In this document: piece by piece, positions 13,434 to 54,766 of the stretch
Position numbering within the stretch: the first letter of the stretch is position 1
How the letters are laid out: each line of letters opens with the position of its first letter
Position numbers and translations under genes: made by a program
Assembly (NCBI RefSeq): GCF_013403565.1
Contig: NZ_CP058627.1
Location: 248,001 to 312,000 of the forward strand
Length of the DNA stretch: 64,000 nt
From: Chitinibacter bivalviorum
GTDB lineage: Bacteria > Pseudomonadota > Gammaproteobacteria > Burkholderiales > Chitinibacteraceae
Direction of reading: 5' to 3'
Notes under the pieces: generated by a model
Told to the model about the DNA's origin: nothing
What the model saw: only the letters and a program-made list of their open reading frames with translations
Databases searched by the model: none

Positions 13434-13482
13434 GGGTATTGCCCTGAAGATATTTAGTTGCATGGATTTGAGGGGGATACCC
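13434..13482. repeat. 49-bp palindromic element, copy A
   Basis: Arms GGGTAT and ATACCC with exactly 37 bases between. It starts five bases after the stop of the formate/nitrite channel gene, and a terminator begins 12 bases later. Its left half, GGGTATTGCCCTGAAGAT, is nearly shared with copies C and D, which shows common origin beyond the arms. Confidence 0.8.
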
Positions 13483-13494
13483 TTAACACAATTA

Positions 13495-13519
13495 AAAAAG
13501 GCCGCAGATGCGGCCTTTT
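13495..13519. terminator. Bidirectional terminator between convergent genes
   Basis: A GGCCGCA stem is flanked by an A tract on the left and a T tract on the right, so it can end both the channel gene (+) and the OsmC gene (-). Confidence 0.85.
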
Positions 13520-13537
13520 TTATTACCAAATGACTTA

Positions 13538-13957
13538 TTAATTCGCTTCGCGCACTTCAAAATCATGCGTGATCGGCACCACTTGACCCAGCATGATCGA
13601 CGCCGAGCAGTATTTCTCTGCTGATAGCTTAATTGCACGTTCAACCACCTCGGGCTTAAGTGCTTTGCCCATCACAATAAAGTGCAGATGGATTTTGGTG
13701 AAGACTTTAGGATCGGTCTCGGCGCGTTCGGCATCAACCTCAACGACGCAGTCGCGCACGTCAGCACGGCCTTTCTTTAAAATATGGATCACATCATAGG
13801 TCGAGCAGCCCGTCATGCCCATCAGCAGCATTTCCATCGGGCGCGGGCCGAGGTTGCGGCCACCACCACTGGGCGGGCCATCCATCAGTACCGCGTGACC
13901 TGATTCCGATGTCGCCAGAAAACTTACTTCCTCAACCCATTTAACGCGTACTTTCAC
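13538..13957 (-). CDS. OsmC-family (YhfA-like) redox protein
   Basis: A 139-residue OsmC/Ohr-fold protein. The two family cysteines are in MTGCSTYDV and EKYCSASIM, the positions used for thiol chemistry against hydroperoxides in Ohr and OsmC. The short length and the PSGGGRNLGPRPMEMLLMG segment fit the YhfA branch, whose physiological substrate is not established. It is transcribed alone, converging with the channel gene. Confidence 0.88.
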   Translation of the reverse strand: MKVRVKWVEEVSFLATSESGHAVLMDGPPSGGGRNLGPRPMEMLLMGMTGCSTYDVIHILKKGRADVRDCVVEVDAERAETDPKVFTKIHLHFIVMGKALKPEVVERAIKLSAEKYCSASIMLGQVVPITHDFEVREAN

Positions 13958-14057
13958 GGCAAACTCCTTCGAATATTTACAAGGCCAGTCGGGCTGGCGG
14001 GTGCTGCTATTTTAGCGGGAAATCAGTCTGCTTGTCCTTTACAGGGCAATGCATTGT

Positions 14058-14063
14058 TATAGT
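14058..14063 (+). promoter_or_regulatory. Extended -10 promoter of the putative small RNA
   Basis: TGTTATAGT at 14055-14063 is an extended -10 (TGnTATAGT). No good -35 stands at the right distance, as is tolerated for extended -10 promoters. It drives the interval that ends in the strong terminator at 14186-14219. Confidence 0.4.
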
Positions 14064-14069
14064 GCTGCC

Positions 14070-14219
14070 GTTTATCGCGACGCACCAAATTGGCTTGCCT
14101 TACGCGAGGATGTCATGGATAATCGCCGGTGACATCAAGCCTGCTTGGTGTCGTCTCCTCCATCCTCCATTTTTGGTGGATTTCGCGCAATCTAGGTCAA
14201 ACTAGATTGCGTTTTTTTT
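14070..14219 (+). ncRNA. Putative small RNA upstream of rplM
   Basis: Between the divergently oriented OsmC gene and rplM lies a strong plus-strand intrinsic terminator with no gene in front of it. About 150 bases upstream is an extended -10 promoter. The interval contains a 9-bp hairpin (14131-14139 with 14144-14152), a pyrimidine-rich single-stranded part, and the terminator hairpin, which is the layout of a trans-acting sRNA. A 31-codon frame crosses it but lacks a spaced ribosome binding site. I match it to no known RNA family. Confidence 0.5.
14186..14219 (+). terminator. Strong terminator of the putative small RNA
   Basis: A 10-bp perfect stem (14186-14195 with 14202-14211) is followed by eight T. 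It lies upstream of the rplM promoter and cannot serve rplM. Confidence 0.9.
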
Positions 14220-14261
14220 GCACCATCGATGTGGTTTACACACATTGATTGCATAAACTCT

Positions 14262-14291
14262 TTGACAGAGTGGCAAGTTCTCCGCTAGAAT
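14262..14291 (+). promoter_or_regulatory. Sigma-70 promoter of rplM-rpsI
   Basis: TTGACA (14262-14267) and TAGAAT (14286-14291) are 18 bp apart, about 40 bp before the rplM start. The near-consensus match fits a strongly expressed ribosomal protein operon. Confidence 0.7.
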
Positions 14292-14330
14292 TCGCGACTT
14301 TCTCAAATTCAAAAACGTGGACTAGCAGTC

Positions 14331-14759
14331 ATGAAAACCTTTTCTGCCAAGCCGCACGAGGTGAAGCGCGAGTGGTTCGTTGTTGACGCCACAGACTTAG
14401 TGCTGGGCCGTCTCGCTGCCGAGATCGCCAAACGCCTGCGTGGCAAACATAAAGCCGAATACACCCCGCACGTCGATACCGGCGACTACATCGTTGTGGT
14501 TAACGCAGATAAGATCCGCGTTACTGGCGATAAAGCTCAATCGAAAAAATACTACCGTCACACTGGTCACCCAGGCGGTATTTACGAGCGTACCTTCACT
14601 GAAATGCAAAACAAATTCCCAGGCCGTGCTTTGGAGTTTGCTGTTAAAGGCATGCTTCCAAAAGGCCCATTGGGTTACGCAATGATCAAGAAGATGAAGG
14701 TTTATGCCGGTGGCGAGCATCCGCACGCTGCGCAAGAACCTAAATCGCTTGCAATCTAA
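14331..14759 (+). CDS. rplM: 50S ribosomal protein L13
   Basis: L13 is an early-assembly protein of the large subunit. The 142-residue protein is full length with the family landmarks [40 protein letters not shown], and the C-terminal [11 protein letters not shown] and [11 protein letters not shown]. It forms the standard two-gene operon with rpsI, 23 bp downstream. Confidence 0.99.
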
Positions 14760-14782
14760 GCAGAACGTAAAGGAATTGCATC

Positions 14783-15175
14783 ATGGTAGGTAAATACAAC
14801 TACGGTACCGGTCGTCGCAAGAGCTCTGTAGCTCGTGTGTTCATCACCAAAGGTACTGGCAATATCGTGGTAAACGGTAAAGCTCTGGATCAGTACTTCG
14901 CTCGCGAAACTGGTCGTATGATCGTACGTCAGCCACTGGAACTCACTAGCAATCTTGAAGCTTTTGACATCATGGTAAACGTAGCTGGCGGCGGCGAATC
15001 TGGCCAAGCTGGTGCTGTTCGCCACGGTATCACTCGTGCTTTGATCGAATTCGATGCGGCTCTGAAGCCAACATTGAAATCAGCTGGTCTGGTTACGCGT
15101 GACGCTCGTGAAGTTGAACGTAAAAAAGTTGGTCTGCGTGGCGCACGTCGTCGCAAACAGTTCTCAAAACGTTAA
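14783..15175 (+). CDS. rpsI: 30S ribosomal protein S9
   Basis: S9 sits in the small-subunit head, and its basic tail reaches the P site. The 130-residue protein begins [15 protein letters not shown], has [15 protein letters not shown], and ends in the canonical [13 protein letters not shown] tail. It is preceded by an AGGAA ribosome binding site and followed by a terminator. Confidence 0.99.
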
Positions 15176-15198
15176 TTCGTTTTTTGTACTGGACCAAG

Positions 15199-15226
15199 AA
15201 AAGCCATCCTTCGGGGTGGCTTTTTT
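15199..15226 (+). terminator. Terminator of rplM-rpsI
   Basis: An 11-bp stem starting at 15199 closes a TTCG tetraloop and is followed by a T tract. Confidence 0.9.
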
Positions 15227-15339
15227 ATTGCCTGTTACTTGGCGTTTACTGTCTTTTACGCGTAATTTTTGTGCGCTAGCCTGCCTACGCGGGGTTATTT
15301 TGTTTTATGATCGTTCTGACACTAACTGAGGATAAAGGC

Positions 15340-16383: not shown

Positions 16384-16388
16384 GCGCA

Positions 16389-17108: not shown

Positions 17109-17117
17109 GGAGACATC

Positions 17118-17531: not shown

Positions 17532-17624
17532 ATATCTGTGATTGCCGCTTTGCTCGATTGACCTAAACTCGACAGAAGCGGATAATCCATAGTGTTTTAG
17601 TCAACTATTATCTTCGGAGCTGTG

Positions 17625-19627: not shown

Positions 19628-19676
19628 GGGTATAGCGATGAAATCTATGTGCTGATTAGATTTAAAGGCCATACCC
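19628..19676. repeat. 49-bp palindromic element, copy B
   Basis: Perfect arms GGGTAT and ATACCC, 37-base interior. An inner stem AAATCTA/TAGATTT sits symmetrically (element positions 14-20 and 30-36), so the whole forms a long imperfect hairpin. It begins eight bases after the cstA stop and ends 13 bases before the ybdD-like start. Confidence 0.85.
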
Positions 19677-19684: not shown

Positions 19685-21751
19685 TTAGGCGTTGGCATTC
19701 GCTTCGCGCAATTGCGGCACGGCTTCAACGACGGTGTGATGCTCAACGGCCAAGGCTTTGCGAATAATGCGCAAACCCGCTAGCAGCATTACCACCACAA
19801 TCGCCATGAAAATCGCGCACAGCGTGGCATCAACATAGTCATTGAAAATGATCTGCTGCATTTGCACTGCTGATTTGGCCGGTGCGATCAGCTCGCCTTT
19901 TGCTGCGGCGGCGCTAAATTTATCGGCATGTGCCAAAAAGCCAATTTTTGGGCTGGGGTTAAACAATTTGTGCCAACCTGCGGTCAAGGTCACCACCAGC
20001 AGCCACAAGGTCGGCACAGCCGTGATCCAGACAAAACGCTCTTTTTTCATTTTCACCAGTACGGTCGTCGCTAAAATCAGCGCCATGCCGGCCAGCATTT
20101 GATTGGCGATGCCGAATAATGGCCACAAGGTATTGATGCCGCCGAGTGGATCAATTACGCCTTGATAGAGGAAATAGCCCCAGCCGCTGACCGCCAAGGT
20201 CGTGGCAATCAGATTGGCTGTCCAGCTTTGGGTGTTGCCCAGCGCCGGAACAAAAGTACCTAGCAAGTCCTGAATCATAAAGCGGCAAACGCGGGTACCT
20301 GCATCGATGGTGGTCAGGATGAACAGCGCTTCAAACAAAATTGCAAAGTGATACCAGAACGCCATCGCCGTTGCGCCACCAAACACTTGGCTTAAGATGT
20401 GCGCCATGCCTACCGCCAGCGTGGGCGCGCCACCTGCACGGCTCAGGATCGTCGTTTCGCCGACGTCTTTGGCCATCTGGGTCAGCATTTCGGGCGTAAT
20501 CACAAAGCCCCAGCTAGAAATCGTCGTCGCCGCTTCAATCGCGGTTTTGCCAATCACGGCCGCTGGCGCATTCATTGCAAAGTAAATGCCCGGATCAAGT
20601 ACACACGCTGCGATCAGCGCCATGATGGCAACAAACGATTCCATCAACATCGCGCCATAGCCAATCGTGCGGATATGGCTTTCGCGCTCGATCATTTTTG
20701 GCGTAGTGCCCGATGAAACCAGCGCGTGGAAGCCAGAAACTGCGCCGCAAGCAATGGTGATAAACAGAAATGGGAACACATTACCGGCAAAAACAGGGCC
20801 AGTGCCGTCGATGAATTTAGTCACACTCGGCATTTGCAATTGCGGCGCAACGAAGAGAATCCCCAATGCCAAGCCCACAATCGTGCCGATTTTCAGGAAA
20901 GTCGACAGGTAATCGCGTGGTGCAAGCAGCAACCACACCGGCAATACCGAAGCGATAAAACCATAAATGATCAGCGACCAAGCCAGCGCTTCACCTTTGA
21001 GGGTAAATAGCGGAGCCAGCGTTGGATTTGCCGCAATATCGCCGCCGTACACAATCGCTGCCATCAGCAAAATAAAACCGATAATCGAGATTTCCGCGAT
21101 ATGCCCTGGGCGGATATAGCGCATATAAATGCCCATAAAGAACGCAATCGGGATCGTCATTGCAATCGTGAATGTTCCCCACGGGCTACCCACCAGTGCT
21201 TTCACCACCACCAGCGCCAATACCGCGAGCAAAATCACCATAATCAGCAAGATACCAATCATCGCGATCACACCGGCCGTGTGGCCCAACTCGGCTTTGA
21301 TAATCTCGCCGAGCGATTTACCATCGCGACGCGTCGAGATAAACAGAATCAGCATATCCTGCACTGCACCGGCGAGCATCACGCCTGCCAGCAGCCACAG
21401 CGTCCCGGGCAGATAGCCCATTTGCGCCGCCAGTACCGGGCCGACCAGTGGGCCAGCGCCGGCAATCGCCGCGAAATGGTGGCCAAACAGCACCCATTTA
21501 TTGGTTGGCACATAGTCCAGACCATCATTGTGTTTCTCGGCCGGCGTGAGGCGATTGTCGTCGAGCTTGAGGACTTTATTGGCAATAAAATTGCTGTAAA
21601 AGCGATAGGCAATCGCATAAGTCGAAATCGCAGCCACCACCAGCCAGATCGCGTTGATCGATTCACCGCGATTGAGCGCAATCGTGCCAAACGCACTCGC
21701 CCCCGCTAAGGCGATGATCAGCCAGATCATCTTTTCCTTGATGCTATTCAT
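19685..21751 (-). CDS. cstA: Carbon starvation protein A (pyruvate/peptide transporter)
   Basis: A 688-residue inner-membrane protein with about 16-18 predicted helices. Characteristic segments are NKWVLFGHHFAAIAGAGPLVGPVLAAQ, ISTRRDGKSLGE, and VSGFHALVSSGTTPKM. CstA proteins take up peptides or pyruvate during carbon limitation. The length and the downstream ybdD-like gene match the E. coli CstA/BtsT arrangement. An imperfect palindrome (21834-21853), about 85 bp upstream of the start, could be an operator. Transcription continues to the ybdD-like gene. Confidence 0.93.
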   Translation of the reverse strand: MNSIKEKMIWLIIALAGASAFGTIALNRGESINAIWLVVAAISTYAIAYRFYSNFIANKVLKLDDNRLTPAEKHNDGLDYVPTNKWVLFGHHFAAIAGAGPLVGPVLAAQMGYLPGTLWLLAGVMLAGAVQDMLILFISTRRDGKSLGEIIKAELGHTAGVIAMIGILLIMVILLAVLALVVVKALVGSPWGTFTIAMTIPIAFFMGIYMRYIRPGHIAEISIIGFILLMAAIVYGGDIAANPTLAPLFTLKGEALAWSLIIYGFIASVLPVWLLLAPRDYLSTFLKIGTIVGLALGILFVAPQLQMPSVTKFIDGTGPVFAGNVFPFLFITIACGAVSGFHALVSSGTTPKMIERESHIRTIGYGAMLMESFVAIMALIAACVLDPGIYFAMNAPAAVIGKTAIEAATTISSWGFVITPEMLTQMAKDVGETTILSRAGGAPTLAVGMAHILSQVFGGATAMAFWYHFAILFEALFILTTIDAGTRVCRFMIQDLLGTFVPALGNTQSWTANLIATTLAVSGWGYFLYQGVIDPLGGINTLWPLFGIANQMLAGMALILATTVLVKMKKERFVWITAVPTLWLLVVTLTAGWHKLFNPSPKIGFLAHADKFSAAAAKGELIAPAKSAVQMQQIIFNDYVDATLCAIFMAIVVVMLLAGLRIIRKALAVEHHTVVEAVPQLREANANA

Positions 21752-22099: not shown

Positions 22100-23312
22100 A
22101 TGCATACTCTTGAGCAACTTCGTAGTGGCCAATTGGCCGGCATTACCCGACTTGACCTGAGTGCCGATCTCAAAGAATTTCCGCGCGAGATTTTTGCGCT
22201 GGCCGATAGCTTAGAAATCCTCAACCTCACCGGCAATCAGCTCGATAGCCTGCCCGATGATTTGCCGCGCCTTTCCAAGCTGAAAATCATTTTCTGCTCG
22301 GAAAATCAATTCACTGCATTGCCCACCGTGCTCGGGCAATGCGAACAACTCGAAATGGTCGGCTTCAAAGCCAATCAAATCCGTCATGTGCCCGCCGAAT
22401 CGCTGCCGACTCAATTGCGCTGGCTGATCCTGACCGACAATCAAATCACACAATTACCCGCGCAAATTGGCCAATGCGCTCGGCTAAAAAAAGCTGATGC
22501 TGGCGGGCAATTTACTAACCGAGTTACCCAATTCATTAGCGCAATGCGTCCATCTGGAACTGATCCGCATCGCCGCGAATCAATTTACTGCCTTGCCTGA
22601 GGTCGTACTGCAATTACCCAAACTCGCGTGGCTGGCCTACGCGGGCAATCCATTTTGCGACGCGTTGGAAAGCGCCAGCCGCGCCCAATATCCGATCCGC
22701 GACATCGATTGGACGACGCTCACCTTGGGGCGCAAGCTCGGCGAAGGGGCTTCGGGCGTGATTTATCAAGCGGATTGGCATGATGGCGAGCAAATCGTGC
22801 CCGTCGCGGTGAAATTATTCAAAGCCGCCGTCACCAGCGATGGCGTACCGCACAGCGAAATGGCGGCCTGCATTGCCGCGGGCCAGCACGCGAACTTAAT
22901 CGCTGTACATGGTCGGATTTGTCATCACCCAGAGGCTGCGCTGGGTTTGGTGCTTGATTTGATTGATGATCAGCACACCATCCTCGTCGGCCCGCCGAGC
23001 TTGGCCTCGTGTACGCGAGATATTTATCCTGATCATGTTCGCTTGAGCCGCGAGCAGGCAGACAATATCTATCAGGGTATTGCCTCAGCGATCAATCAAC
23101 TCCATGCACATGGACTGATACATGGTGATGTATATGGGCATAATATTCTGAAAAACGAAGCAGGCCACGCCATCCTCGGCGATTTTGGCGCTGCGTCTTT
23201 TGTTGATTTGCGAAACACGGCGCAAGCCGATGCGCTACTTGAAATCGAGCTTCGTGCCTTGGCTCATTTGAAGGATGAGTTGAAACAGCGTGTGTTATTA
23301 CAGCAAAAATGA
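22100..23312 (+). pseudogene. Leucine-rich-repeat protein kinase, frameshifted
   Basis: Two overlapping frames make one protein. The first (22100 to the frame break) gives five or six LRRs of the form LxxLxLxxNQLxxLP. The second continues the same repeat series and then a Ser/Thr-kinase-like domain: glycine loop GEGASGVIYQ, VAVKLFK, catalytic HGDVYGHNIL and DFGAAS. The break is an A7 tract at 22486-22492: with six A the text reads on as RLKKLMLAGNLL without a gap. It could be a recent mutation, a phase-variable tract, transcript slippage or a sequencing error. Around 400 residues when repaired. Standalone gene; likely a cytoplasmic signalling kinase. Confidence 0.8.
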
Positions 23313-24085: not shown

Positions 24086-24134
24086 GGGTATTGCTCTGTA
24101 GGTCAATATTAAATTGATCTACATGAATATACCC
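24086..24134. repeat. 49-bp palindromic element, copy C
   Basis: Perfect arms GGGTAT and ATACCC, left half GGGTATTGCTCTGTAGGT. Its last base directly abuts the htpG stop codon, and the terminator lies five bases beyond its other end. An inner stem of GTAGgTCAAT with ATTGAtCTAC makes it nearly a full hairpin. Confidence 0.85.
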
Positions 24135-28746: not shown

Positions 28747-28795
28747 GGGTATGGCCGTAAAGACCAGTTTCAGTATGACTTACAGCTTGATACGC
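28747..28795. repeat. 49-bp palindromic element, copy G (overlaps thrC 3' end)
   Basis: GGGTAT and ATACGC stand at the family spacing. The right arm lies within the last codons of thrC and the element covers the stop codon. Its coding part gives the expected ThrC C-terminus, so it may be a degenerate copy or chance. Confidence 0.4.
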
Positions 28796-30225: not shown

Positions 30226-30274
30226 GGGTATAGGCCCGTAGATATTTGTATGATTGGTCTGCGTGTTTATACCC
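30226..30274. repeat. 49-bp palindromic element, copy F (abuts thrC start codon)
   Basis: Perfect arms GGGTAT and ATACCC. On the thrC strand its final base is immediately before the ATG. Five inner base pairs with two G-T wobbles (TAGAT with GTCTG) suit folding as RNA. It forms the thrC leader within the hom-thrC intergenic region. Confidence 0.85.
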
Positions 30275-38014: not shown

Positions 38015-39850
38015 TTAGTCTTCTTCACCCAAAAAGCCGCCACTTTGATGCGCCCAGAGGCGAGCATAGATGCCGCCATGCGCCAATAGTTCGGCATGCG
38101 TACCTTGTTCGACAATCTGCCCCTGATCGAGCACGATCAAGCGATCCATCGCCATAATCGTAGAGAGTCGGTGAGCGATCGCGACCACGGTTTTGCCCTG
38201 CATCAGCGTATAGAGGCTGGCTTGAATCGCCGCTTCTACTTCCGAATCGAGCGCACTGGTTGCTTCATCGAGTAGCAAAATCGGCGCATCTTTCAAAATC
38301 ACCCGCGCAATCGCAATCCGCTGACGCTGCCCGCCCGAGAGTTTTACCCCGCGCTCGCCCACATGGGCGTCGTAACCGACGCGTCCGCTTGGATCACTGA
38401 GCTGGGATATAAAATCATGCACTTCAGCGCGCTGTGCCGCGCGTATCATGTCTGCCTCGGAAGCATCGGGTTGCCCGTACAAAATATTGTCGCGCACCGA
38501 ACGATGCAGCAGGGACGTATCTTGCGTCACCATGCCGATCTGATGGCGCAAACTATCTTGCGTAACGTGCGAAATGTCTTGCCCGTCGATGCGAATTTGG
38601 CCGCTGTGAATATCGTAAAAACGCAGCAGCAAATTCACAATCGTTGATTTACCCGCGCCAGAACGGCCAACGAGGCCGATTTTCTCACCCGGCTGGATGG
38701 TGAGATTGAGCTGATCGATCACCGCTTTTACGGCGCTATCGTGGCCGTAATTAAAGCGAACTTGATCAAATTCGATCAGCCCTTTGTTCACTTGCAATGG
38801 CGCAGCGTCAGTGTCATCGAGAACAGTCGACGGTTTGGCCAGCGTATTGATGCCGTCTTGCACCGTACCAATATTTTCAAATAACCCCGCCATTTCCCAC
38901 ATAATCCAGTGCGACATGCCACTGAGCCGCAGCGACATGGCCGTGGCGGCGGCCACCGCGCCAATGCCGACTTCTCCGCGCGTCCATAAATACAAGGTGG
39001 CGCCTGCTGTCGAGGCGATGAGCAACATGCTCAGAATATGGTTGGTGATTTCAAACAGGCTGACCAGCCGCATTTGACCATGCACGGTCTGCATGAATTC
39101 CTTCATCGCCGTTTTGACAAACCCAGCCTCGCGCTGCGTGTGCGAAAACAATTTGACGGTACTGATATTGGTATAAGCGTCGGTAATGCGACCCGTCATC
39201 AAAGAACGCGCATCGGCTTGGGCGCGCGACACACGACTCAGACGTGGCACAAAATACAGCATCGCCGCGATATACAGCGCCAGCCAGCCAAAGAAAGGAA
39301 TCATCAGCCGCAAATCAAAGCCGCCAGCGACCGAGGCCATCGTGACAAAATAAATCACGACAAACACCAAGATATCGCAACTGGTCAGCACCGTATCGCG
39401 CACTGCCAAGGCTGTTTGCATGACCTTGGCTGAAATACGACCCGCAAATTCATCCTGATAAAAACTCATGCTCTGGCCGAGCATCTGGCGGTGAAATTGC
39501 CAGCGCAAACGCATCGGAAAATTACCCGCCAGTGTTTGGTGTTTGATTAGTGTTTGTAGCGCAATCAGGATGGGGCTGGCCAGCAAAATACCCAGCAAAA
39601 GTAATAAATGGTGTCGCTCATTTTGCCAAAGCGAGGCGGGCTCGGCTTTACTCAGCCATTCCACCACATTGCCCAGCATGCTGTAGAGCAAGGCTTCAAA
39701 TGCGCCAGTGAGGGCGGTGAAAAAGGCCAGCAAGACGATGTATTTGCGCATGCCTGCCGTGCAGCTCCAGACAAAGCGCAAAAACGTCGTCGGGCGCTGT
39801 GGAATGGCATCGGGATAGGGTTGGATGAGTTTTTCAAACAAGGCAAACAT
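38015..39850 (-). CDS. ABC exporter (fused permease and ATPase)
   Basis: A 611-residue type IV ABC half-transporter, active as a dimer in the inner membrane. Five or six membrane helices fill residues 30-330, followed by the nucleotide-binding domain: Walker A GRSGAGKST, signature LSGGQRQRIAIAR, Walker B ILLLDEATSALD, and switch His in AIAHRLST. It resembles lipid or multidrug exporters (MsbA, YojI, HlyB-like); the N-terminus lacks a peptidase domain. The substrate is not evident from neighbours. Confidence 0.9.
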   Translation of the reverse strand: MFALFEKLIQPYPDAIPQRPTTFLRFVWSCTAGMRKYIVLLAFFTALTGAFEALLYSMLGNVVEWLSKAEPASLWQNERHHLLLLLGILLASPILIALQTLIKHQTLAGNFPMRLRWQFHRQMLGQSMSFYQDEFAGRISAKVMQTALAVRDTVLTSCDILVFVVIYFVTMASVAGGFDLRLMIPFFGWLALYIAAMLYFVPRLSRVSRAQADARSLMTGRITDAYTNISTVKLFSHTQREAGFVKTAMKEFMQTVHGQMRLVSLFEITNHILSMLLIASTAGATLYLWTRGEVGIGAVAAATAMSLRLSGMSHWIMWEMAGLFENIGTVQDGINTLAKPSTVLDDTDAAPLQVNKGLIEFDQVRFNYGHDSAVKAVIDQLNLTIQPGEKIGLVGRSGAGKSTIVNLLLRFYDIHSGQIRIDGQDISHVTQDSLRHQIGMVTQDTSLLHRSVRDNILYGQPDASEADMIRAAQRAEVHDFISQLSDPSGRVGYDAHVGERGVKLSGGQRQRIAIARVILKDAPILLLDEATSALDSEVEAAIQASLYTLMQGKTVVAIAHRLSTIMAMDRLIVLDQGQIVEQGTHAELLAHGGIYARLWAHQSGGFLGEED

Positions 39851-39965: not shown

Positions 39966-40014
39966 AGGTATATGTTTAGGATCTTTTGTTAGTAATGTTT
40001 TCAACTATATACAT
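39966..40014. repeat. 49-bp element, degenerate copy L
   Basis: AGGTAT and ATACAT at the family spacing, in the 277-bp gap between the ABC exporter and sugar-binding protein genes. The arms carry two changes, so this assignment is weak. Confidence 0.4.
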
Positions 40015-40127: not shown

Positions 40128-41399
40128 TTATTTCTTCTGAGCCAGGCGTTTATTCCAGTCGGCCACGGCTTTATCGAGCGCCGCTTGTGCCGATTTACGA
40201 CCCAAGATGGCGGCTTCAACTTCGGTGTGCAGCACGCGCATCATTGTGGTTTCATCTGGCAAGATGCCTGGTTCCATCAGCAAGGTTTTTGCATCACCAA
40301 TCGAGCCTGCTGCAACGGCGCGGCCTTTGAGGACTGGATCTGCGCTTTTCGCGCCTTCAGTAAAGAAACCATCTTTAGCGGCCAGTTTGGTCGATGGGAA
40401 AGTCGTGCCAGTGGCTTTAGAGAAGGCCAGCTGATTGGCATCATTGGTAATAAAGGCACCCAATTTACCCGCTTCAGCAGGATTAGCCGCGCCTTTAGGG
40501 ATAACAAAGTCCATCAGCCAACCACCAAAGGCAATCTTGCCTGCGCCAACGGGGAAGGGCGCAATATCGGTCACGTCATAGATCTTTTTCGCATCCGCTT
40601 GCGTGCGTTTCAGCGCCTGTGGTGCGGTGGTCATCATCGCCAGGCGGCCAGAATTGTAGCTGGAGATTTCCTGCTCAAATTCCATTTTGAATACATCGCG
40701 TGGAATCACGCCTTCTTTATAGAGCTGGGCAAATTGATTGAGCATCGCAACGTGTTGCGGTGAGTTAAACACGGCTTTGCCATCTTTGATGACAGGCAGA
40801 CCCGCATAGACAAACCAGCCAGTAATGCCGCCGCCGCTGCCCGGTGCTAATTTTGGCGAGAATGCAGTGAGGCCAGTTTTCTGTTTGATGACGCGCGCTT
40901 GAGCAATAAATTCATCGTAAGTTTTGGGTTGGCCATTGACGCCCGCTTTGTTGAGGATGTCTTTGTTGTAGGCAATGATTGACACCGAGTTATACGAAGG
41001 GAAGGCGTAGATTTTGCCGTTGACGGTAACGTCTTTGATCGCATTTTCTTGATATTTGCTCGCGTCGATATAGGCGTCTACCGGCAAGATATTGCCTTGA
41101 TTGGCAAATTCATGCACCCAAGGCACATTAAAGTTGACCAAGGCGGGTGGTTTGCCAGAAGCGATGGCGGCAATCAGTTTGGGCTGAATTTGATCCCAGT
41201 TCATGTCGACCCACTTGGCTTCTAGCGTGGGGTTTTGCGCGTTAAAGGCTTTGGTCACTTCGGTGAAGTAAGCGCTAAACGTTGGCGCCATACTCATCGT
41301 CCAGTATTCGAGTTGTATCTTTGGTGCGGCACTGGCGGCACCCGCTCCCAATAAACCTGCTGCAACGAGACTGCTAACGACGGCTGTTTTTTTGAACAT
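40128..41399 (-). CDS. Sugar ABC transporter substrate-binding protein (orphan)
   Basis: A 423-residue family 1 solute-binding protein. Signal peptide (VVSSLVAAGLLGAGAASA) is cleaved before APKIQLEYW. Family landmarks are FNAQNPTLEAKWVDMNWDQ, VNGKIYAFPSYNSVSIIAYNKDILNKAG, and the late GWLMDFVIPKGAANP. In family 1 these bind di- or oligosaccharides and N-acetylated sugars. No permease or ATPase gene lies beside it, so the transporter must be encoded elsewhere. Sitting next to two chitinase genes it may bind chitooligosaccharides, an inference. A terminator follows, so it is monocistronic. Confidence 0.85.
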   Translation of the reverse strand: MFKKTAVVSSLVAAGLLGAGAASAAPKIQLEYWTMSMAPTFSAYFTEVTKAFNAQNPTLEAKWVDMNWDQIQPKLIAAIASGKPPALVNFNVPWVHEFANQGNILPVDAYIDASKYQENAIKDVTVNGKIYAFPSYNSVSIIAYNKDILNKAGVNGQPKTYDEFIAQARVIKQKTGLTAFSPKLAPGSGGGITGWFVYAGLPVIKDGKAVFNSPQHVAMLNQFAQLYKEGVIPRDVFKMEFEQEISSYNSGRLAMMTTAPQALKRTQADAKKIYDVTDIAPFPVGAGKIAFGGWLMDFVIPKGAANPAEAGKLGAFITNDANQLAFSKATGTTFPSTKLAAKDGFFTEGAKSADPVLKGRAVAAGSIGDAKTLLMEPGILPDETTMMRVLHTEVEAAILGRKSAQAALDKAVADWNKRLAQKK

Positions 41400-41576: not shown

Positions 41577-41625
41577 AGGTATGCTTTTTAGTGTTTTATT
41601 CCAATTGGGTTTTATGCATATACCA
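41577..41625. repeat. 49-bp palindromic element, copy I
   Basis: AGGTAT and ATACCA at exact family spacing, with a right half AATTGGGTTT like copy E. It lies in the 313-bp gap between the sugar-binding protein start and the GH19 chitinase terminator. A further GGGTAT at 41631-41636 makes a local small palindrome with it. Confidence 0.65.
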
Positions 41626-41712: not shown

Positions 41713-43704
41713 TTATTTCGCGTTATTGATCACCACCACGCCGTCTTTTTTCACCTGACCGCGGAACATATAGTCCACGCAGGCTTTGTAATCGCCCGGT
41801 GTCGCGAGGCTAAATGGCATCTGGTAATCAACGAGCTGACAAGCCCAAGACACGCCGCCTGGATTGTTGGCGTTGTAGCCCCAGCTCTTATCGAGATAGG
41901 TTTTGGTCGCTGCGGCTGAGCCTGGCTGGAAGCCGCGTTGCGTTGCGCAGCTCAATTGCTCGCCAGTGATATCGACGCCCAGTTTGGCGGCAAATTGCTT
42001 GTAGGCTGCAATGCGGTTTTTCGCTTGCTGCACATCGCTACCGCCGCCACACTCGATCCCGCCATTGATGATGTTGATCGTTGAGCCAAAGCCTGGCTGC
42101 ATATTGTTGGCGATATCCACGGAGTTAGGTACCCATGTGCCATCCACGACCCACGTCATTGGCGGTTTTGGTGATTGTGGGTACACCGCGAACCAGACCG
42201 CAGACGCAAAGTTCAGCCAGGTATCAGCCACTTTGCCCGGATTGTCGAGCAAGACTGCGGCGTCACCATACAGCGATTTACTAAATGGCCCGTAGTTGAA
42301 GTTGTACGACAACTGCTTGCTGCCGCGACCAAAGTAATCAAGGTTTTTGCCCTGGGCGTTTTGGCCGCAAGCATAGAAGATCGAGAAGATCGAGCTGCCA
42401 GCGCCAGTAAAGCAATCTTGGTACGCGCCCACGGCCGAGCCTTCGGCATAACCCATTTCACGCAGATACCACAGTGCTTGATTCCAAGTTGGAATGACGC
42501 TGCTTTGATCCATCGTGTCCAAAATCGGGTTGGCATTGGCTGGATACGCTTTTGCGCCAGCAGGCGTCAGCGTAGACCAGCTTGCCCCTGTTTCTTGGGT
42601 GAAGTGAGCAAATGACGTTGCGATCAATTTGGCACAAATTGCATCGGCATTGCGACCATCGGTGTAGTCATCACAATACGCAGGGAATTTGGCAATACCC
42701 CGCAAGAAATTGGTGTAGGTGTACGCTACGTTTCGAACTGGGAACAGCTGGTTGAACAAGCTTTCCGACACAATACGCTCGGCACGACGCGCATTGCTAG
42801 GATTGGCTGCGCGACCAGGTACGACTGCTTCCACCTCAGCATCAGGTAATACGCGCAGCGCTGAGCGGATGCGTGCGATGGCTTGCGTGTCTGTACCGGC
42901 TTGGCTCATCAATGCGGTTTCTGCCGCCGTCATTTGCGCGTCGCTCGGATAGCCTGCTGGTGCTGCTACATAAGTGATTTGTGGTTTGTACGATGCAACG
43001 GCTGGGGTTGCGGTAGCCAATGGCGTCGCAGTCGGAATGGCCGTAGGGGCGGGCGTTGCGCTTACTTGTGGGCTTGCTGTTGGCGTAATCGCTGGCGTTG
43101 CCGTTGGCGCCGGTGTTACACCACCCGCGTTGCACGTACCCAGATCGAGCCAGGGGGATTCCCAAGAGCTGCTAACAGTTTTAGGGGTGTCGCTGGCGGC
43201 GGCATACCATTGGGCTTTCCATGTGTGGCCGTTGTAGCTAACGATCGAGCCAGCGCTATAAACTGCCGCAGTCCAAGTCGGCGCTGCACAGCTACCTGCT
43301 GCTGGTGTTGCGGTTGGCGCTGCAGTCGGTGTAGCCGTTGGAATAGCAGTCGGTGCTGTCGTTGGGGCTATGGTGGGCGCGGCTGTAGGCGTGGCTGTCA
43401 CTTGAGGTGTGGCAGTCGGTGCTGCTGTTACGACGGGCGTAGCCGTTGGTGCAATTGTTGGAGCCGTCGTTGGCGCGGCAGTAGCGCTGGTGGCGACGAC
43501 AGTCCACAGTGTTGGGCTAGAAGCTGGATTCCAGTTAGCCCCCACATAAGCGGTGTGCGTGACCAAGGCGCTGTAGGTTTTGCCTTGATAGTCAACTTGA
43601 GTGCCAGCGGTGTAGGTTAATCCTTCTTGCCATGTTGCGGCAAAGACCGAGCTCATGCTCAATGCCATCAATAATGCGGCAGAGCGGGTGCGTAATGTTC
43701 TCAT
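41713..43704 (-). CDS. Secreted GH19 chitinase with two chitin-binding domains (paralog 1)
   Basis: An endochitinase of 663 residues, secreted by a signal peptide ending SVFA. First comes a type 3 chitin-binding domain (WQEGLTYTAGTQVDYQGKTY to PTLW), then a Thr/Pro/Ala linker of about 55 residues, a second domain with KAQWYAA and WESPWLDLGTC, another linker, and the GH19 catalytic domain from about residue 245. Catalytic Glu is in FAHFTQETG, and GRGSKQLSYNFNYG is the substrate motif. GH19 inverts beta-1,4 bonds in chitin. It is a close paralog of the gene at 44080, in tandem. The 376-bp gap upstream (43705-44079) holds no gene. Confidence 0.95.
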   Translation of the reverse strand: MRTLRTRSAALLMALSMSSVFAATWQEGLTYTAGTQVDYQGKTYSALVTHTAYVGANWNPASSPTLWTVVATSATAAPTTAPTIAPTATPVVTAAPTATPQVTATPTAAPTIAPTTAPTAIPTATPTAAPTATPAAGSCAAPTWTAAVYSAGSIVSYNGHTWKAQWYAAASDTPKTVSSSWESPWLDLGTCNAGGVTPAPTATPAITPTASPQVSATPAPTAIPTATPLATATPAVASYKPQITYVAAPAGYPSDAQMTAAETALMSQAGTDTQAIARIRSALRVLPDAEVEAVVPGRAANPSNARRAERIVSESLFNQLFPVRNVAYTYTNFLRGIAKFPAYCDDYTDGRNADAICAKLIATSFAHFTQETGASWSTLTPAGAKAYPANANPILDTMDQSSVIPTWNQALWYLREMGYAEGSAVGAYQDCFTGAGSSIFSIFYACGQNAQGKNLDYFGRGSKQLSYNFNYGPFSKSLYGDAAVLLDNPGKVADTWLNFASAVWFAVYPQSPKPPMTWVVDGTWVPNSVDIANNMQPGFGSTINIINGGIECGGGSDVQQAKNRIAAYKQFAAKLGVDITGEQLSCATQRGFQPGSAAATKTYLDKSWGYNANNPGGVSWACQLVDYQMPFSLATPGDYKACVDYMFRGQVKKDGVVVINNAK

Positions 43705-46516: not shown

Positions 46517-47200
46517 CTAGGGCTGCGGCCAGTCGAGCTGCCAAGGCGAACTAAGTGTTTCAAGTTGCGTTGCTAGCGCGGTACTTTGAAAATGACTGCC
46601 CGATAACTTGGTACAAATATATTGATGGGTATTGCCATAAAAATCAAACGCAATAGCGTATGCATGCAGATACCCCCGGTCAGCGGGGCGGCCCGCATAG
46701 CGCTCATCACCGATGATGGGGCTACCTAGGCTTTTCATCGCGACGCGGAGCTGATGCGTGCGACCCGTCAATGGTTTGAGCAGAAATAGCCTCTCGCCAT
46801 TGCCTAGGCCATAACTGAAAAATTGCGTGATTGCCAATTGGCCACCTTCGCGGACTAGTTTCCAGCTGCCATTGCGGCCTTTTTCCATTCCGCCGCGGAT
46901 TTTGCCCTGTTTTTTACTGGGCTTTTTATCACTGAGCGCAAGGTAGTATTTTTGAATGCGGTGCTCGGCAAACAATGTCGAAAAATACCGCGCTGATTCG
47001 CTGCTGCGCGCCAATAGCAGTAAGCCCGAGGTCATTTTGTCGAGGCGATGTACTGTGTAGAGCTCGGCCAAGCCTGTTTGCGCTCGCACCAAATCGATCA
47101 GGCTGTCTTGCGTTTCGTTCTGGTGAAAATCCAAGCCCGCAGGTTTATTGATCAGGATAAAGTCGTCATGACTAGCGATGATTTCAATTGGCTCGATCAT
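46517..47200 (-). CDS. RluA-family pseudouridine synthase
   Basis: A 227-residue RNA pseudouridine synthase of the RluA type without an S4 domain. The catalytic Asp is in YTVHRLDKMTSGLLLLAR, and GRTHQLRVAMKSLGSPIIGDERY is the second family motif. The target RNA position cannot be told. It overlaps the next gene by four bases and is probably cotranscribed with it. The C-terminal region contains a perfect-arm copy (K) of the 49-bp palindrome inside the coding sequence. Confidence 0.88.
   Translation of the reverse strand: MIEPIEIIASHDDFILINKPAGLDFHQNETQDSLIDLVRAQTGLAELYTVHRLDKMTSGLLLLARSSESARYFSTLFAEHRIQKYYLALSDKKPSKKQGKIRGGMEKGRNGSWKLVREGGQLAITQFFSYGLGNGERLFLLKPLTGRTHQLRVAMKSLGSPIIGDERYAGRPADRGYLHAYAIAFDFYGNTHQYICTKLSGSHFQSTALATQLETLSSPWQLDWPQP
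46627..46675. repeat. 49-bp palindromic element, copy K (inside RluA-like gene)
   Basis: Perfect arms GGGTAT and ATACCC at the exact spacing, with GGGTATTGCC as in copies A, C and D. It lies in codons that give a plausible RluA C-terminus (LHAYAIAFDF), so it either arose by chance in a real gene or contributed coding sequence in frame. Confidence 0.5.
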
Positions 47201-48133: not shown

Positions 48134-48134
48134 T

Positions 48135-48183
48135 GGGTATTGCTCTGCAGATCATTCATGGTAATGATTTGATGGCTATACCT
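48135..48183. repeat. 49-bp palindromic element, copy D
   Basis: GGGTAT and ATACCT at exact spacing; left half GGGTATTGCTCTGCAGAT as in copies A and C. It begins one base after the rhodanese stop and lies before the next same-strand gene at 48198. An inner stem AGATCATT/AATGATTT is present. Confidence 0.8.
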
Positions 48184-48577: not shown

Positions 48578-50170
48578 TTACTGACCAAGTGCTTTGGCAA
48601 AACCGTTGGCATATGGCAGACCTGTGGTGTCGCGCTCATAAGACCAGTAATGCAAACCAGCCAAGCCGTTGGCTTTGATGAATGCAGCTACATCCGGAAT
48701 ATCGCGGTCGGTTGAGAAATGCGCGCCCACGTCATCACTTGGAATTTCAGGCGTCAATTCGATCTGGTTATACGGTACGCCGTAGAAGTTGTGCAGATTC
48801 ATTGCCGCTTGGATCGCTGATTGACCCATCTGGCAAGAGCCGCCACTGACCACACACACATTCGCTTTTGGTGCGCCGTAATCCATCGCCATCAAATTAA
48901 TGATGTAGTTTTTCAGACCCGCCGCTTTAATTGCCGCCATGACCATTTGACCGTCGCTACCGAGTGGGTCTGGTGAGCCTGCACCTAAATCGGTGGCAAC
49001 TGAAGCGCCATTGTTATTGGCCAATGTAGGAATCGTGAAGCTAAAGCGCATATTGGGGTAAGTCTGCTGCGCTGTTTTTACGCGCGCCACCATGCTGGCG
49101 ATTTCAGCCGCAGTATTGCGACCGCCTTCGATGTCAAAATCCACCCCAACCATATTGGCCGAATTGTAATGACTCAGGAAGGTCGTAAAGCCTGCATCGG
49201 TCGCGCAAGTAAATTTACCCGCTGCGCCGCCTACAGCGACGATGTAAGTTTTGCCTGAGCTGATAAACGAGGGCATATTGCCAGCGGCAAAATCAACTGG
49301 ATTCATGCCGGCAACATTTTCACCTGCAGGTGTTACCGCATTTGAGCCGCACTCACCAGTTACAAAAGCCCAAGTCAGCGTTTTCATGCCTGCTGGCATT
49401 GCTTGTGCAATCGGCAGCAATTTGCCAGAAGTATCGACGCCCTGCATCGCCAGATTATTCCAGTTGGTGCTTACTGTAACGTCTTTGTATGCGCCATAGC
49501 TGAACGACAAGGCATTACCTGGCTGCTGGCTTGGCGCTGGAGTCGTACTTGTGGTGGGCGTCGGTGTCGGTGATGTCGTCACGACTGGTGTTGGTGAGTT
49601 GGTCACAACCGGTGTTACTTTCGGTGTGGCCGTTGGTGTTGCAGTCGCTGGGCCACCGGTGCAGCTACCTAAATCAGACCAAGGTTGGCTAGTACCTGAG
49701 TGTGTGCTTGGGTCTTCGTTCTGAGTCCACCATTGCGCTTTGTAGTTGTGGCCGTTGTAGCTAGCAGTTTGTCCACCCGTGTATGCGGTGCCGCTATTCC
49801 AAGCTGCCACGCAACTGCCGGCGCTCACTGGTGTGGCAGTTGGTTTGGCTGTTGGGCTCGGGGTAGGTAAGCCAATCGGTGTGACCGCTGGCGTTACAGT
49901 TGGCGCCGGTGTTGCTGTTGGTGCAGGCGTGCTGCTGCTTGAATCGGGGCCAATTAGTTTCCACAGACTGGGTGTCGCGGCTGGATTCCAGTTTGCGCCC
50001 AGATAATCGGTCTGGGTCACCAGCGCCTGATAATCGTTGCCAGCGTAGCTCACAATCGTGCCTGCATTGTAAGTACCACCATCCACCCAAGCAGGGTAAC
50101 CTGCATGAGCAAAGGCTGTAATCATGGCTGCCGGAATGGCCGCCGCGATAAAGCGGGTGAAATTAGACAT
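48578..50170 (-). CDS. Secreted GH18 chitinase with two chitin-binding domains
   Basis: A chitinase of 530 residues with a signal peptide (FIAAAIPAAMITAFAHA). Domain one (WVDGGTYNAGTIVSYAGNDYQALV to LGANWNPAATPSLWKL), a Pro/Thr linker, domain two (YKAQWWTQNEDP to PWSDLGSC), a linker, then a GH18 barrel starting LSFSYGAYKDVTV. The catalytic motif DxxDxDxE is seen as VGVDFDIEGG. GH18 retains configuration with substrate assistance. MSNFTRF at 50170 is preferred because GGAGAG lies before it. It complements the inverting GH19 enzymes. The 439-bp AT-rich gap upstream (50171-50609) has no convincing gene. Confidence 0.95.
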   Translation of the reverse strand: MSNFTRFIAAAIPAAMITAFAHAGYPAWVDGGTYNAGTIVSYAGNDYQALVTQTDYLGANWNPAATPSLWKLIGPDSSSSTPAPTATPAPTVTPAVTPIGLPTPSPTAKPTATPVSAGSCVAAWNSGTAYTGGQTASYNGHNYKAQWWTQNEDPSTHSGTSQPWSDLGSCTGGPATATPTATPKVTPVVTNSPTPVVTTSPTPTPTTSTTPAPSQQPGNALSFSYGAYKDVTVSTNWNNLAMQGVDTSGKLLPIAQAMPAGMKTLTWAFVTGECGSNAVTPAGENVAGMNPVDFAAGNMPSFISSGKTYIVAVGGAAGKFTCATDAGFTTFLSHYNSANMVGVDFDIEGGRNTAAEIASMVARVKTAQQTYPNMRFSFTIPTLANNNGASVATDLGAGSPDPLGSDGQMVMAAIKAAGLKNYIINLMAMDYGAPKANVCVVSGGSCQMGQSAIQAAMNLHNFYGVPYNQIELTPEIPSDDVGAHFSTDRDIPDVAAFIKANGLAGLHYWSYERDTTGLPYANGFAKALGQ

Positions 50171-50609
50171 AGTTCTCTCCATCCTGTATTCGGATTTATT
50201 AGCTTTCTAATTGAGGTTGAGTATCACAGTCATGCAGCGCAAGAGTGCTGCTAGGTAATACCAATTGTGGCGCTCGTAAGAACAAACTTACAGCGGCACG
50301 AAGCAGATTAAGCCGTTGGAGCAGATCGAAGTCAAGAATTGTTACAGGCGGGAGTGAGCGAAATTACATGAATAAAATCAGAATGTTATTTGCTACAACA
50401 TTAACAATAGTTAATGTATTGCGCTGCAACATTTTTATGATTTTATTCAGATTTAGATTAAATATTTTATGTTGCGATGCAAAATAAACAAATTCTGATG
50501 TAGTGATTGAAGGATGTCGATTTATGTTTCTATCAAAATAGAATACAAAAAAACGACACCCACAAATTGCATATCCAAGCAGCGCTGAAGCTAATGGGGC
50601 GGGAAGAGT

Positions 50610-52595: not shown

Positions 52596-52690
52596 GGGGC
52601 TTCCGAGAGTATGGCATTAAGGCGCGGAAGTATAAGGTAATCAAGAGCTTGTGTGGAGATTAATGCAGGAAAAATGGCAATAATTTGGCT

Positions 52691-53542
52691 TTAGCGGCTA
52701 CGATTTCGACGCTCGATTTTATCGCTGTACATGGCTTGGTCGGCATTGGCCAGCAGCTCATCGCTGGTGGTGGGCTGATCCGCGGAAAAAGGAGCGACGC
52801 CGATGCTAAAAGAAATGCCGTATTCTTGTTTCAATCCTTGGGCATCTGCGCTTAACTTCTCGATCCATCGCGCAGGGTTTTGCTGTGCGAGCAGGACAAC
52901 AAATTCATCGCCACCCATACGAAATGCTTCGGCGCCGTCGTGGTGCAATTGCTTGGCGCAGAGTTTAAGTACCAAATCCCCCATATCATGACCAAATTGA
53001 TCATTAACGGGCTTGAAGTTATTCACATCGATATATAGCAAGGTGCCGCTTTCTTGAGTGCTGAGTTTTTGATTGAGTCGATTGAATAAAGCACGCCGAT
53101 TGCCCAGACCAGTGAGCTCGTCGCTATACGCTTGCAGGTATAGCGAGGCTTGTAATTGTTTGCTGGTGCTGATTTCGGCATTGAGCTGGGTGATGAGTTC
53201 TATCCGCTCTGAAATTACACGCAGAAAAGCAATGCCGATCAGAAAAAAACCTGTTGCAAAGAAAAGATCATCATAAGTATCTGCGATCAGACCCATCGTG
53301 CCCTTGCCCTTGTAGACTCCATCTATCCAATCGAGAAAATTTCCGACCCAGTAAATTGATACGCCCAAGAGAAAAGGGCGCAGCAGGGCTTCGTTATTGA
53401 CATGACGCCAGATCAGAACAAAGACCAGTGAGGTGACGACTAGGCCAAATAAATCATGCGCATCAGGGAGTTGCAAAATATGCATCAGGCTACGAATCAC
53501 AAATAAAATCGCGATCCAGTACCCGTAAGAGAGTTTATTCAT
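52691..53542 (-). CDS. Membrane diguanylate cyclase
   Basis: A c-di-GMP synthase of about 283 residues. Four to five membrane helices occupy the N-terminal 135 residues, then a helical linker, then a GGDEF domain (YSDELTGLGNRRALF to the end) with an intact active site FRMGGDEFVVLL. The allosteric I-site RxxD is not present at its usual place before GGDEF, so product feedback is unlikely. The sensed signal is unknown. The ATG at 53542 is preferred over a GTG at 53584 because of GAG seven bases before it. Confidence 0.88.
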   Translation of the reverse strand: MNKLSYGYWIAILFVIRSLMHILQLPDAHDLFGLVVTSLVFVLIWRHVNNEALLRPFLLGVSIYWVGNFLDWIDGVYKGKGTMGLIADTYDDLFFATGFFLIGIAFLRVISERIELITQLNAEISTSKQLQASLYLQAYSDELTGLGNRRALFNRLNQKLSTQESGTLLYIDVNNFKPVNDQFGHDMGDLVLKLCAKQLHHDGAEAFRMGGDEFVVLLAQQNPARWIEKLSADAQGLKQEYGISFSIGVAPFSADQPTTSDELLANADQAMYSDKIERRNRSR

Positions 53543-53631
53543 AGCAAGCTCATCCCTAGCGCTGATTACCTCGTGCGGTTTCACTATAGCGCTCTACTTT
53601 GTATTAACTAGAAAATCCGTATACCCGTAGC

Positions 53632-53680
53632 AGGTATATTAATGAGGGCTAATTTAATTAAAGAGTTTGTTTGTATACCT
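53632..53680. repeat. 49-bp palindromic element, copy H
   Basis: AGGTAT and ATACCT at exact family spacing, so the arms are still perfectly complementary although changed from GGGTAT/ATACCC: a compensating pair of changes. It lies in the shared gap between the diguanylate cyclase (divergent) and the outer-membrane protein gene. Confidence 0.75.
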
Positions 53681-53764
53681 TAGAGTATTTTGTGTTGTGT
53701 CTATGCTCGAAATAGCGGGTACTGCTCAATGCGAAGGCAATTCTCAGGTAAAGTTCCCTGATTC

Positions 53765-54688
53765 ATGACTTTGTCTGTTTTCTGGATTTGTGTGTGCGGT
53801 ATGGTTTATCGATTACAGCTGTGTTTGTGTGTGTTGCTTGTGCAAATTGGGATGCAGGCCCAGGCCACTGATCCGCGATCCTACGTCGTTGAAGCCGACG
53901 ACACGTCGCGCACCTCGCTGAGATTTAAGGTGCAAGAAGCCGACACACCACGCGGCCCGAAAGAAGTCGAAAACACCACCAAGCACACTTATACCCTGCG
54001 GCATGCGCAGTATTTTGATCTGGCCGGGCACATGGCGACCGCCGCGATTCAGATTCCCTACGCCGTGATTGATCAAGATTTCAGCAACAGCCGCCGCAAA
54101 GGGGATGATCAATCAGGAATGGGTGACCCAATGATCGGTTTGGCCGTCGGCACATACCGTACGCCCGCGATCAGCCGGGAAGAATTGAAAACCTATGATG
54201 CGGATGGCTTGAGTAGTGGTTGCCAAGTTTATGCCAGCTTGCCGCTGGGCTCATATCAAGCCTTTCGCAGCAGCAATCCTGGGCAAAATCGCTGGATCGT
54301 TATCCCTGAGTGCCAGCTAGGTTGGACGCAGGGTAATTTGCTGCTCGAAGCGCTTGCAAACCTCAATTGGTTTTCAGATAACGACGAATATCGCGGTACG
54401 ACTTTTAGCCAAGCCAATCAATACAATTTCAAATTCATGGCCAGCTACGGCTCGCTGCGCAGCAGTTATTTTGCCGGCACACTGGAATATAAAACTGGCG
54501 GCGAAACCAGCCGAGGCGGGCGCGCCGATCACAATGGCCTCAATAATTGGGTTGCAGGCGCGATGTTTTATGTCAAATTGCCTGGCAATAATAGTCTGAA
54601 ACTCATCGGCGAATTACCTGTAAAAACGGCGGTGAATACGACCAAAGCCAGTGAAATCTCGCTGGTGCTATCGCATGTATGGCGGTAG
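53765..54688 (+). CDS. Outer-membrane beta-barrel (phenol-degradation MetA type)
   Basis: A 307-residue exported protein with a signal peptide (LQLCLCVLLVQIGMQAQA, cut before TDP). The mature part has many alternating hydrophobic strands and ends LVLSHVWR, with a terminal aromatic-Arg pattern close to a barrel C-terminus. RKGDDQSGMGDPMIGLAVGTYR and NLNWFSDNDEYRG fit the Phenol_MetA_deg transporter family (channels for small organic molecules). The substrate is unknown. An internal ATG at 53801 would give a shorter leader. Confidence 0.65.
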   Translation: MTLSVFWICVCGMVYRLQLCLCVLLVQIGMQAQATDPRSYVVEADDTSRTSLRFKVQEADTPRGPKEVENTTKHTYTLRHAQYFDLAGHMATAAIQIPYAVIDQDFSNSRRKGDDQSGMGDPMIGLAVGTYRTPAISREELKTYDADGLSSGCQVYASLPLGSYQAFRSSNPGQNRWIVIPECQLGWTQGNLLLEALANLNWFSDNDEYRGTTFSQANQYNFKFMASYGSLRSSYFAGTLEYKTGGETSRGGRADHNGLNNWVAGAMFYVKLPGNNSLKLIGELPVKTAVNTTKASEISLVLSHVWR

Positions 54689-54717
54689 TTTTTAGCTGAT
54701 TTAGATTAGGCGCTTTA

Positions 54718-54766
54718 GGGTATGTTATTCAAGGTTAATATTTGATTGGGTTTTGGCGGTATACCC
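54718..54766. repeat. 49-bp palindromic element, copy E
   Basis: Perfect arms GGGTAT and ATACCC at exact spacing. It lies 29 bases after the barrel-gene stop and four bases before a bidirectional terminator. Confidence 0.85.

Follow-up and report, generated by a model that had tools for sequence, protein, structure and literature searches.

Dispersed 49-bp inverted-arm sites in Chitinibacter bivalviorum and two related genera: probable recognition sites of a DNA-binding protein

Sites in the 64-kb window

The DNA stretch analysed here (the window) is 64,000 nucleotides long and spans positions 248,001 to 312,000 of contig NZ_CP058627.1 of Chitinibacter bivalviorum. It carries copies of a site that measures 49 bp end to end and consists of inverted arms, GGGTAT and ATACCC or variants of these, on either side of a 37-bp spacer. 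An initial annotation of the window listed nine copies under the rule RGGTAT-N37-ATACCY, six of them with perfect arms, and all were located as given. With up to one mismatch this rule finds 16 matches in the window (0.11 expected; a maximum of 1 in any of 100 shuffles). Eight of these have no mismatch and six are mismatched solely at the tolerant arm position 2. The remaining two (26356 and 41577) fall off the refined (relaxed) rule RNGTAT-N37-ATACNY, which 14 window sites fit.

Three of the perfect-arm sites are in convergent gaps. The site at 13434..13482 is located between a formate transporter gene (12610-13428, plus strand) and an OsmC-like gene (13538-13957, minus strand), the one at 19628..19676 between a 121-aa open reading frame (ORF, plus strand) and a cstA-like gene (19685-21751, minus strand), and the one at 54718..54766 between a Phenol_MetA_deg gene and thiC. 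Another perfect-arm site (24086..24134) is found just 3' of htpG, and one (46627..46675) lies inside an RNA pseudouridylate synthase gene (46517-47200, minus strand). The sixth (30226..30274) is situated between hom and thrC and abuts the likely thrC start, which by our own reading of the sequence is a minus-strand ATG at 30225. Sites with variant arms inside ORFs are GGGTAT/ATACTT at 4513..4561 (ORF 4430-5329, plus strand) and at 9918..9966 (ORF 9788-10540, minus strand), GGGTAT/ATACAT at 23075..23123 (ORF 22497-23312) and ACGTAT/ATACCC at 59111..59159 (ORF 59009-59989, plus strand). GGGTAT/ATACGC at 28747..28795 spans the thrC 3' end, AGGTAT/ATACAT at 39966..40014 is placed between ORFs 38015-39850 and 40128-41399, and GGGTAT/ATACCT is found at 48135..48183. 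AGGTAT/ATACCT at 53632..53680 has an unusual placement, the divergent gap between a GGDEF gene and the Phenol_MetA_deg gene. As to the two matches off the refined rule, 26356 (start) is inside a ParA-like gene, and AGGTAT/ATACCA at 41577..41625, which deviates at position 49, lies between a solute-binding-protein gene and a GH19 chitinase gene.

Several of these sites have counterparts in the genomes used for comparison, which are denoted by G numbers (G000 being the C. bivalviorum genome itself). The htpG site has a counterpart at the same place in five congeners (arms with at most one mismatch), G014 and G023, and the site at 46627 has one in G001. At 23075..23123, the stretches of five congeners have a site with the same ATACAT arm. 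G005 also has a site near the same gene end as 13434..13482 and in the same gap as 53632; sites near the same gene end were found in G005, G001 and G031 for 28747 and in G005 and G001 for 48135. Unlike other noncoding sites, the interior of the 30226-30274 site is kept in G001 at 36 of 37 bases, and this copy may have a second role in hom-thrC expression.

Copy number, distribution and site anatomy

G000 comprises 3,677,798 bases in 4 contigs (C1-C4). C1:1-450000, which has positive GC skew throughout, was analysed in detail, and stretches of six genomes totalling 1,685,500 bp were pooled. Genes were called by a simple in-house ORF caller, whose errors are included in the counts (for example, a misplaced thrC start). 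Genera are coded: g1 is Chitinibacter, and g11 and g10 were assigned to Deefgea and Chitinilyticum by matching three genera to three names and by base composition.

The two outcomes that the initial annotation named as refuting the pattern, counts no higher than in shuffled sequence and no preference for a 37-base spacer, did not arise. G000 has 243 perfect-arm sites at exactly this spacer (control, 0), out of 267 perfect-arm pairs at spacers 22-52. RGGTAT-N(22-52)-ATACCY occurs 426 times in the genome compared with 4 for the reversed pattern. In C1:1-450000 there are 49 RGGTAT/ATACCY pairs at spacer 37, the next best of all spacings from 0 to 200 has 3, and 0.13 are expected per spacing. Under the relaxed rule the six-genome pool has 291 sites at spacer 37, 13 at 38 and 6 at 36, with a mean of 3.76 elsewhere between 20 and 60; spacer 38 forms a minor class (13 vs 3.76, p 0.00015). 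We counted 82 relaxed sites in the 450 kb of G000 (other spacings average 0.78) and another 59 in 17 additional 20-kb stretches, which extrapolates to a total of about 640-670 in the genome. The ends of contigs C2 and C3 (20 kb each, GC 0.65 and 0.59) have no site and that of C4 (10 kb) has 2. Sites occur on both replichores (the GC skew reverses near 1.05 and 2.8 Mb). Among the matches listed in a chromosome-wide sample they are uneven, yet not restricted to one macrodomain. Most of the chromosome has roughly one site per 5 kb, whereas mobile islands have few.

Large site numbers were found solely in Chitinibacter, Deefgea and Chitinilyticum. Perfect-arm pairs at spacers 22-52 were counted in 61 relatives: six Chitinibacter genomes have 200-315, five Deefgea genomes 112-205, two Chitinilyticum genomes 171-177, and the other 48 have 0-9. 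Across the order (399 genomes), counts at spacer 37 are 100-279 in six genomes and 0-3 in the remaining 393. A search of the genomes of 84,980 species returned 17 stretches (8 Chitinibacter, 5 Deefgea, 4 Chitinilyticum); it used a near-consensus pattern, which sets with a different interior would escape. A scan for inverted 5- and 6-mers at fixed spacing, which recovers GGGTAT at 37 in positive genomes, revealed no comparable set with other arms in 100 kb each of g7, g3, g8 and g2. In an HtpG tree of 16 rows, g10 groups with g3 and not with g1 and g11. The support is weak (71/75), so the tree does not choose between loss of sites in g7 and gain in g10.

The arms tolerate change unequally. In 182 one-mismatch sites at spacer 37 the changed base was at arm position 1 to 6 in 29, 110, 4, 9, 11 and 19 cases (background per other spacer: 0.78, 1.73, 1.81, 2.24, 2.05 and 1.65), so that change is tolerated at position 2 but not at position 3. 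Information in the interior is low and symmetric, with 0.93 bit at position 15, 0.53 at position 20 and 0.48 at position 12. The strongest interior preference is A15/T35, followed by positions 12, 20 and their partners, and the strongest points (arm, 15, centre, 35, arm) are spaced by about one helix turn. A15 has a frequency of 0.65 in coding and 0.82 in noncoding sites, and the positional preferences of the two classes are the same. Chitinilyticum sites share the arms and A15/T35 but differ in their interior consensus (AGCCATTT..AAATGGCT). The GGGTATTGCYCTGNAGRT shared by some window copies, previously taken as a sign of descent, is a positional consensus.

In C1:1-450000, 39 of 49 sites look oriented along the leading strand, which is probably C-to-T strand bias acting on a symmetric site. 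A separate sequence word, which does not belong to the site, is mostly coding and has a preferred frame (31/42 in G000, 38/38 in G001 and 24/27 in G005), and was taken as a coding word.

Conservation, placement and pairing

Coding sites arise by substitution, not insertion. We compared 92 ortholog pairs in which one member has a coding site: 67 align across it without a gap, and 50 retain the site exactly. Among the 25 gapped pairs, five lack 17-18 residues; four of these are at the misplaced thrC start and one (18 residues) is unexplained. At four-fold degenerate positions of conserved amino acids, the base is kept at 53/66 positions in the arm core, 54/59 in the arm edges, 176/339 in the interior and 655/1463 in the flank, pooled counts in which a shared site is seen from each of its two genomes. 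With 77 other spacers between the arms as a control, the counts were 51/119, 38/97, 459/890 and 1343/2820, respectively (core vs control core, p 6e-7). Counted one way, the core is kept at 15/15 positions in G005 (control, 19/38) and 15/19 in G001 (control, 11/26).

The initial annotation considered three of the copies to be related by descent. Descent from common copies is not supported. The interiors of 23 shared noncoding pairs have a median identity of 17 of 37 bases, close to the median of 15/37 for unrelated noncoding sites in G000 (5-95%: 10-21); two shared noncoding pairs are clearly more alike (23/37 and 28/37). The median in 14 coding pairs is 26.5.

The sites are mostly noncoding, as described earlier: in G000 the coding share is 28 of 82 for relaxed sites and 84% for random positions. 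Strict noncoding sites of G000 avoid divergent gaps (1/37 sites vs 56/242 gaps, p 0.002) and favour convergent ones (14/37 sites vs 38/242 gaps, p 0.003). Divergent gaps also hold just 1/32 such sites in G001 and 1/30 in G005. The median distance between a stop codon and the start of a noncoding site is 15 bp (153 measurements). The sites also keep apart from one another. With shuffles that keep the coding or noncoding class and avoid divergent gaps, the six genomes pooled have 12 site pairs at less than 1 kb (79 expected), 30 at 1-1.5 kb (26 expected) and 54 at 1.5-3 kb (77 expected), and the ratio is about 1 beyond 3 kb. The depletion below 1 kb holds singly in G000, G005 and G001. The widest gaps between sites, in G001 (42 kb) and G000 (24.5 kb), include integrase-bearing islands, but among the proteins scanned there (10 at a time) are also core ones such as those of pheT and thrS. 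Another wide gap covers polysaccharide genes. One site-free island, G001:C1:260001-280000, encodes an HsdM methylase, an AAA_21 (AbiEii-like) protein, an integrase and a DUF3631 protein.

Selection for pairing had been proposed from one copy in which both arm ends differ together. For the arms this was not borne out. A1 and T49 occur together in 14/291 sites (19.4 expected if independent; one-sided p 0.065), and non-G at position 2 coincides with non-C at position 48 in 6 (12.6 expected; one-sided p 0.012). A site thus has weak letters in both of its arms less often than expected. Compensation would give the reverse, and the deficit is in keeping with a threshold on total affinity. For the interior of noncoding sites the proposal stands in part: Watson-Crick pairing across the dyad axis is in excess in intergenic sites of Chitinibacter (n=115, z 5.6) and Chitinilyticum (n=23, z 5.2), Deefgea having too few for this test (n=8). 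There is no such excess in partly coding sites (n=31, z 0.97) or in coding sites (n=86, z -1.15 and n=14, z -2.2). Tandem sites read in transcript orientation have 547 Watson-Crick pairs (466.6 expected) and 162 G-U pairs (161.8 expected). Quasi-palindromes are subject to template-switch correction, which is a likely cause of the noncoding interior pairing. A DNA hairpin role in noncoding sites is possible.

A putative symmetric reader and the alternatives

The fixed spacing, the arm rule, the conservation at silent positions, the placement and the mutual exclusion together fit a DNA-binding protein. On this sequence evidence, we consider it quite probable that the 49-bp element is a DNA-level recognition site of one sequence-specific, putative symmetric protein. 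Such a protein would read both inverted R-N-G-T-A-T arms at once, in fixed helical phase and chromosome-wide. It may be a symmetric dimer or tetramer that lies along one DNA face over about four turns, the arm-to-arm distance noted in the initial annotation and supported here, with contacts about once per turn (arm positions 1-6, position 15, the centre, position 35 and arm positions 44-49). As sites seldom join weak letters in one arm to weak letters in the other, binding would depend on a threshold of total affinity. The exclusion of near neighbours would fit a function that needs one site per stretch, whether the sites mark chromosome architecture or, under molecular drive, mark DNA as self. 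A role in chromosome organization (loops, compaction or domain limits) has in our estimate slightly less than an even chance; a self-DNA signal, as for uptake in transformation, is less probable, and some other function, for example one at gene ends that is coupled to transcription or linked to a topoisomerase, is unlikely. We tentatively picture about 650 evenly dispersed dyad sites and a clade-specific putative reader that spans four turns, with a minimum spacing of about 1 kb, as setting short regular domains or a self mark. If true, such a set would be read by a mechanism of its own and would differ from matS, parS, KOPS, Chi and DUS (DNA uptake sequences).

Several observations weigh against this reading. 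The protein was not found: profile searches for PF01797, PF16732, PF00216 and PF02195 in 43 family genomes gave none exclusive to the three genera, and ParB_N (PF02195), HU/IHF (PF00216) and ComP-like (PF16732) proteins are in all 43. HU/IHF copies number 4-5 in g1, g10 and g11, 4-6 in g7 and 3-4 in the rest. The nine relaxed sites in divergent gaps in the six genomes (three of them in G005) were searched for a self-regulated binder gene, and there is no common regulator gene; in G031, two of eight strict noncoding sites are divergent. The one-way four-fold counts of G000 are weaker (core 16/20 vs control 15/24, edges 14/15 vs 4/19). Counterparts of G000 sites at the same relative place in five genomes (15/26, 13/18, 5/9, 2/7 and 2/6, or 37/66) speak for the reading but are in part chance, the base rate at which an ortholog has some site in the 200 bp on its 3' side being 0.10-0.34. 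Finally, plain protein binding does not need the interior pairing excess of noncoding sites. As a separate observation, a fourth HU/IHF-type gene with a longer match is found at G000:C1:1106353-1106634, with counterparts in g1 and two or more g7 genomes; it is not peculiar to the site-bearing genera.

A DNA uptake or self-DNA signal would be a different explanation, in which a competent cell prefers site-bearing DNA, and biased uptake with recombination (molecular drive) keeps copies spaced. We hold it to be doubtful, with a good deal to be said for it. The resemblance to DUS of Neisseriaceae and to uptake signal sequences (USS) of Pasteurellaceae is considerable: hundreds of copies chromosome-wide, in genes and between them, avoidance of near neighbours, scarcity in islands, and a related lineage, the family being near Neisseriaceae. 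A ComP_DUS-type pilin (PF16732) is encoded in 43/43 family genomes, but these include genomes without sites, so the apparatus does not track the sites. Uptake sequences of Neisseria and Haemophilus typically have a density of about 1 per kb, and the density here of about 1 per 5 kb is below that. Six known uptake words, AT-DUS among them, were counted in the six stretches, and none is abundant (five words 0-1 each, the 9-bp Haemophilus word 0-6). No transformation of the three genera was found in the literature searched. Known uptake sequences are evenly spaced according to Karlin et al., as cited in the accessible text of PMC1939737, which also holds them to be less even than a compaction signal needs. 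The accessible text of PMC3630211 offers a precedent for symmetry in Simonsiella, where overlapping DUS pairs in dyad arrangement suggested dimer-based recognition. In what these two sources present, known words are 9-12 bp long and non-palindromic (PMC1939737, PMC3630211), whereas the element here is a 49-bp dyad with a fixed spacer that needs both arms and not a short asymmetric word; by the spacing counts, lone half sites are not enriched.

The proximity of noncoding sites to stop codons and their interior pairing would also suit an RNA element, a transcript hairpin at gene ends for mRNA stability or termination. This is very improbable. Of the 82 sites in G000, 28 are coding, and pairing is not in excess in coding sites; where Watson-Crick pairs exceed expectation G-U pairs do not, and the arms are kept as letters, not as pairs. 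No Rfam family matched the sites in the window at gathering cut-offs. An intrinsic terminator was rejected since a T-rich tail (at least 6 T in 9) follows just 9/464 site ends; terminator-like hairpins occur before or after sites without rule. A miniature mobile element (REP, REPIN or MITE; that is, repetitive extragenic palindromes or miniature inverted-repeat transposable elements) that inserted widely and then decayed is, if anything, even harder to credit. Hundreds of short palindromic copies, chiefly intergenic and 3' of genes, do recall REPs, which in the accessible text of PMC3733652 are mainly intergenic, downstream of genes and tagged by GTAG or CGTC at one end, and noncoding interiors resemble imperfect palindromes. 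The sites described here end in RNGTAT/ATACNY without such a tag and have a fixed length of 49 bp. Moreover, coding sites do not carry a 16-residue insertion (67/92 ortholog pairs are gap-free, with the one unexplained case given above), and arms persist where interiors are saturated. The Y1 transposase of REPs (RAYT; PF01797) is not co-distributed: it is missing from G005, G003, G014, G031 and G015, which have 112-304 perfect-arm pairs each, and has matches in several genomes without sites.

Known readers of chromosomal sites offer further comparisons. Sites of chromosome-organizing proteins such as matS of MatP, the SlmA and Noc sites and parS are likewise palindromic and lie outside promoters. 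Unlike these, the present set has far more copies, belongs to no single macrodomain and has a much longer site, and no ParB paralog is peculiar to the three site-bearing genera. OxyR and other LysR-type tetramers have four-contact operators, with symmetric contacts about once per turn over four turns, similar to what is proposed here; a chromosome-wide set away from promoters is not expected of a transcription activator. The remark of the initial annotation that it knew no described repeat with such a rule agrees with our literature search, which found no description of this site set; its coverage of subscription journals was thin, so absence is not proven. If the protein-site reading is true, the chromosomes of three genera have in common a conspicuous layer of sequence that had not been described before. 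In it, selection or drive would maintain hundreds of exact-rule sites, silent codon positions included, and the sites are kept apart. The exact rule makes the putative reader protein catchable, and the even spacing opens questions on chromosome domains or on discrimination of self and foreign DNA in competent bacteria.

Two further features of the window were noted. The sole match of the Rfam scan at gathering cut-offs is a thiamine pyrophosphate (TPP) riboswitch at 56858-56958 (minus strand), upstream of thiC (54820-56793, minus strand). At 41713-43704 and 48578-50182, close to sites, there are genes with chitin-binding modules and a GH19 chitinase, which fits a chitin-degrading genus.

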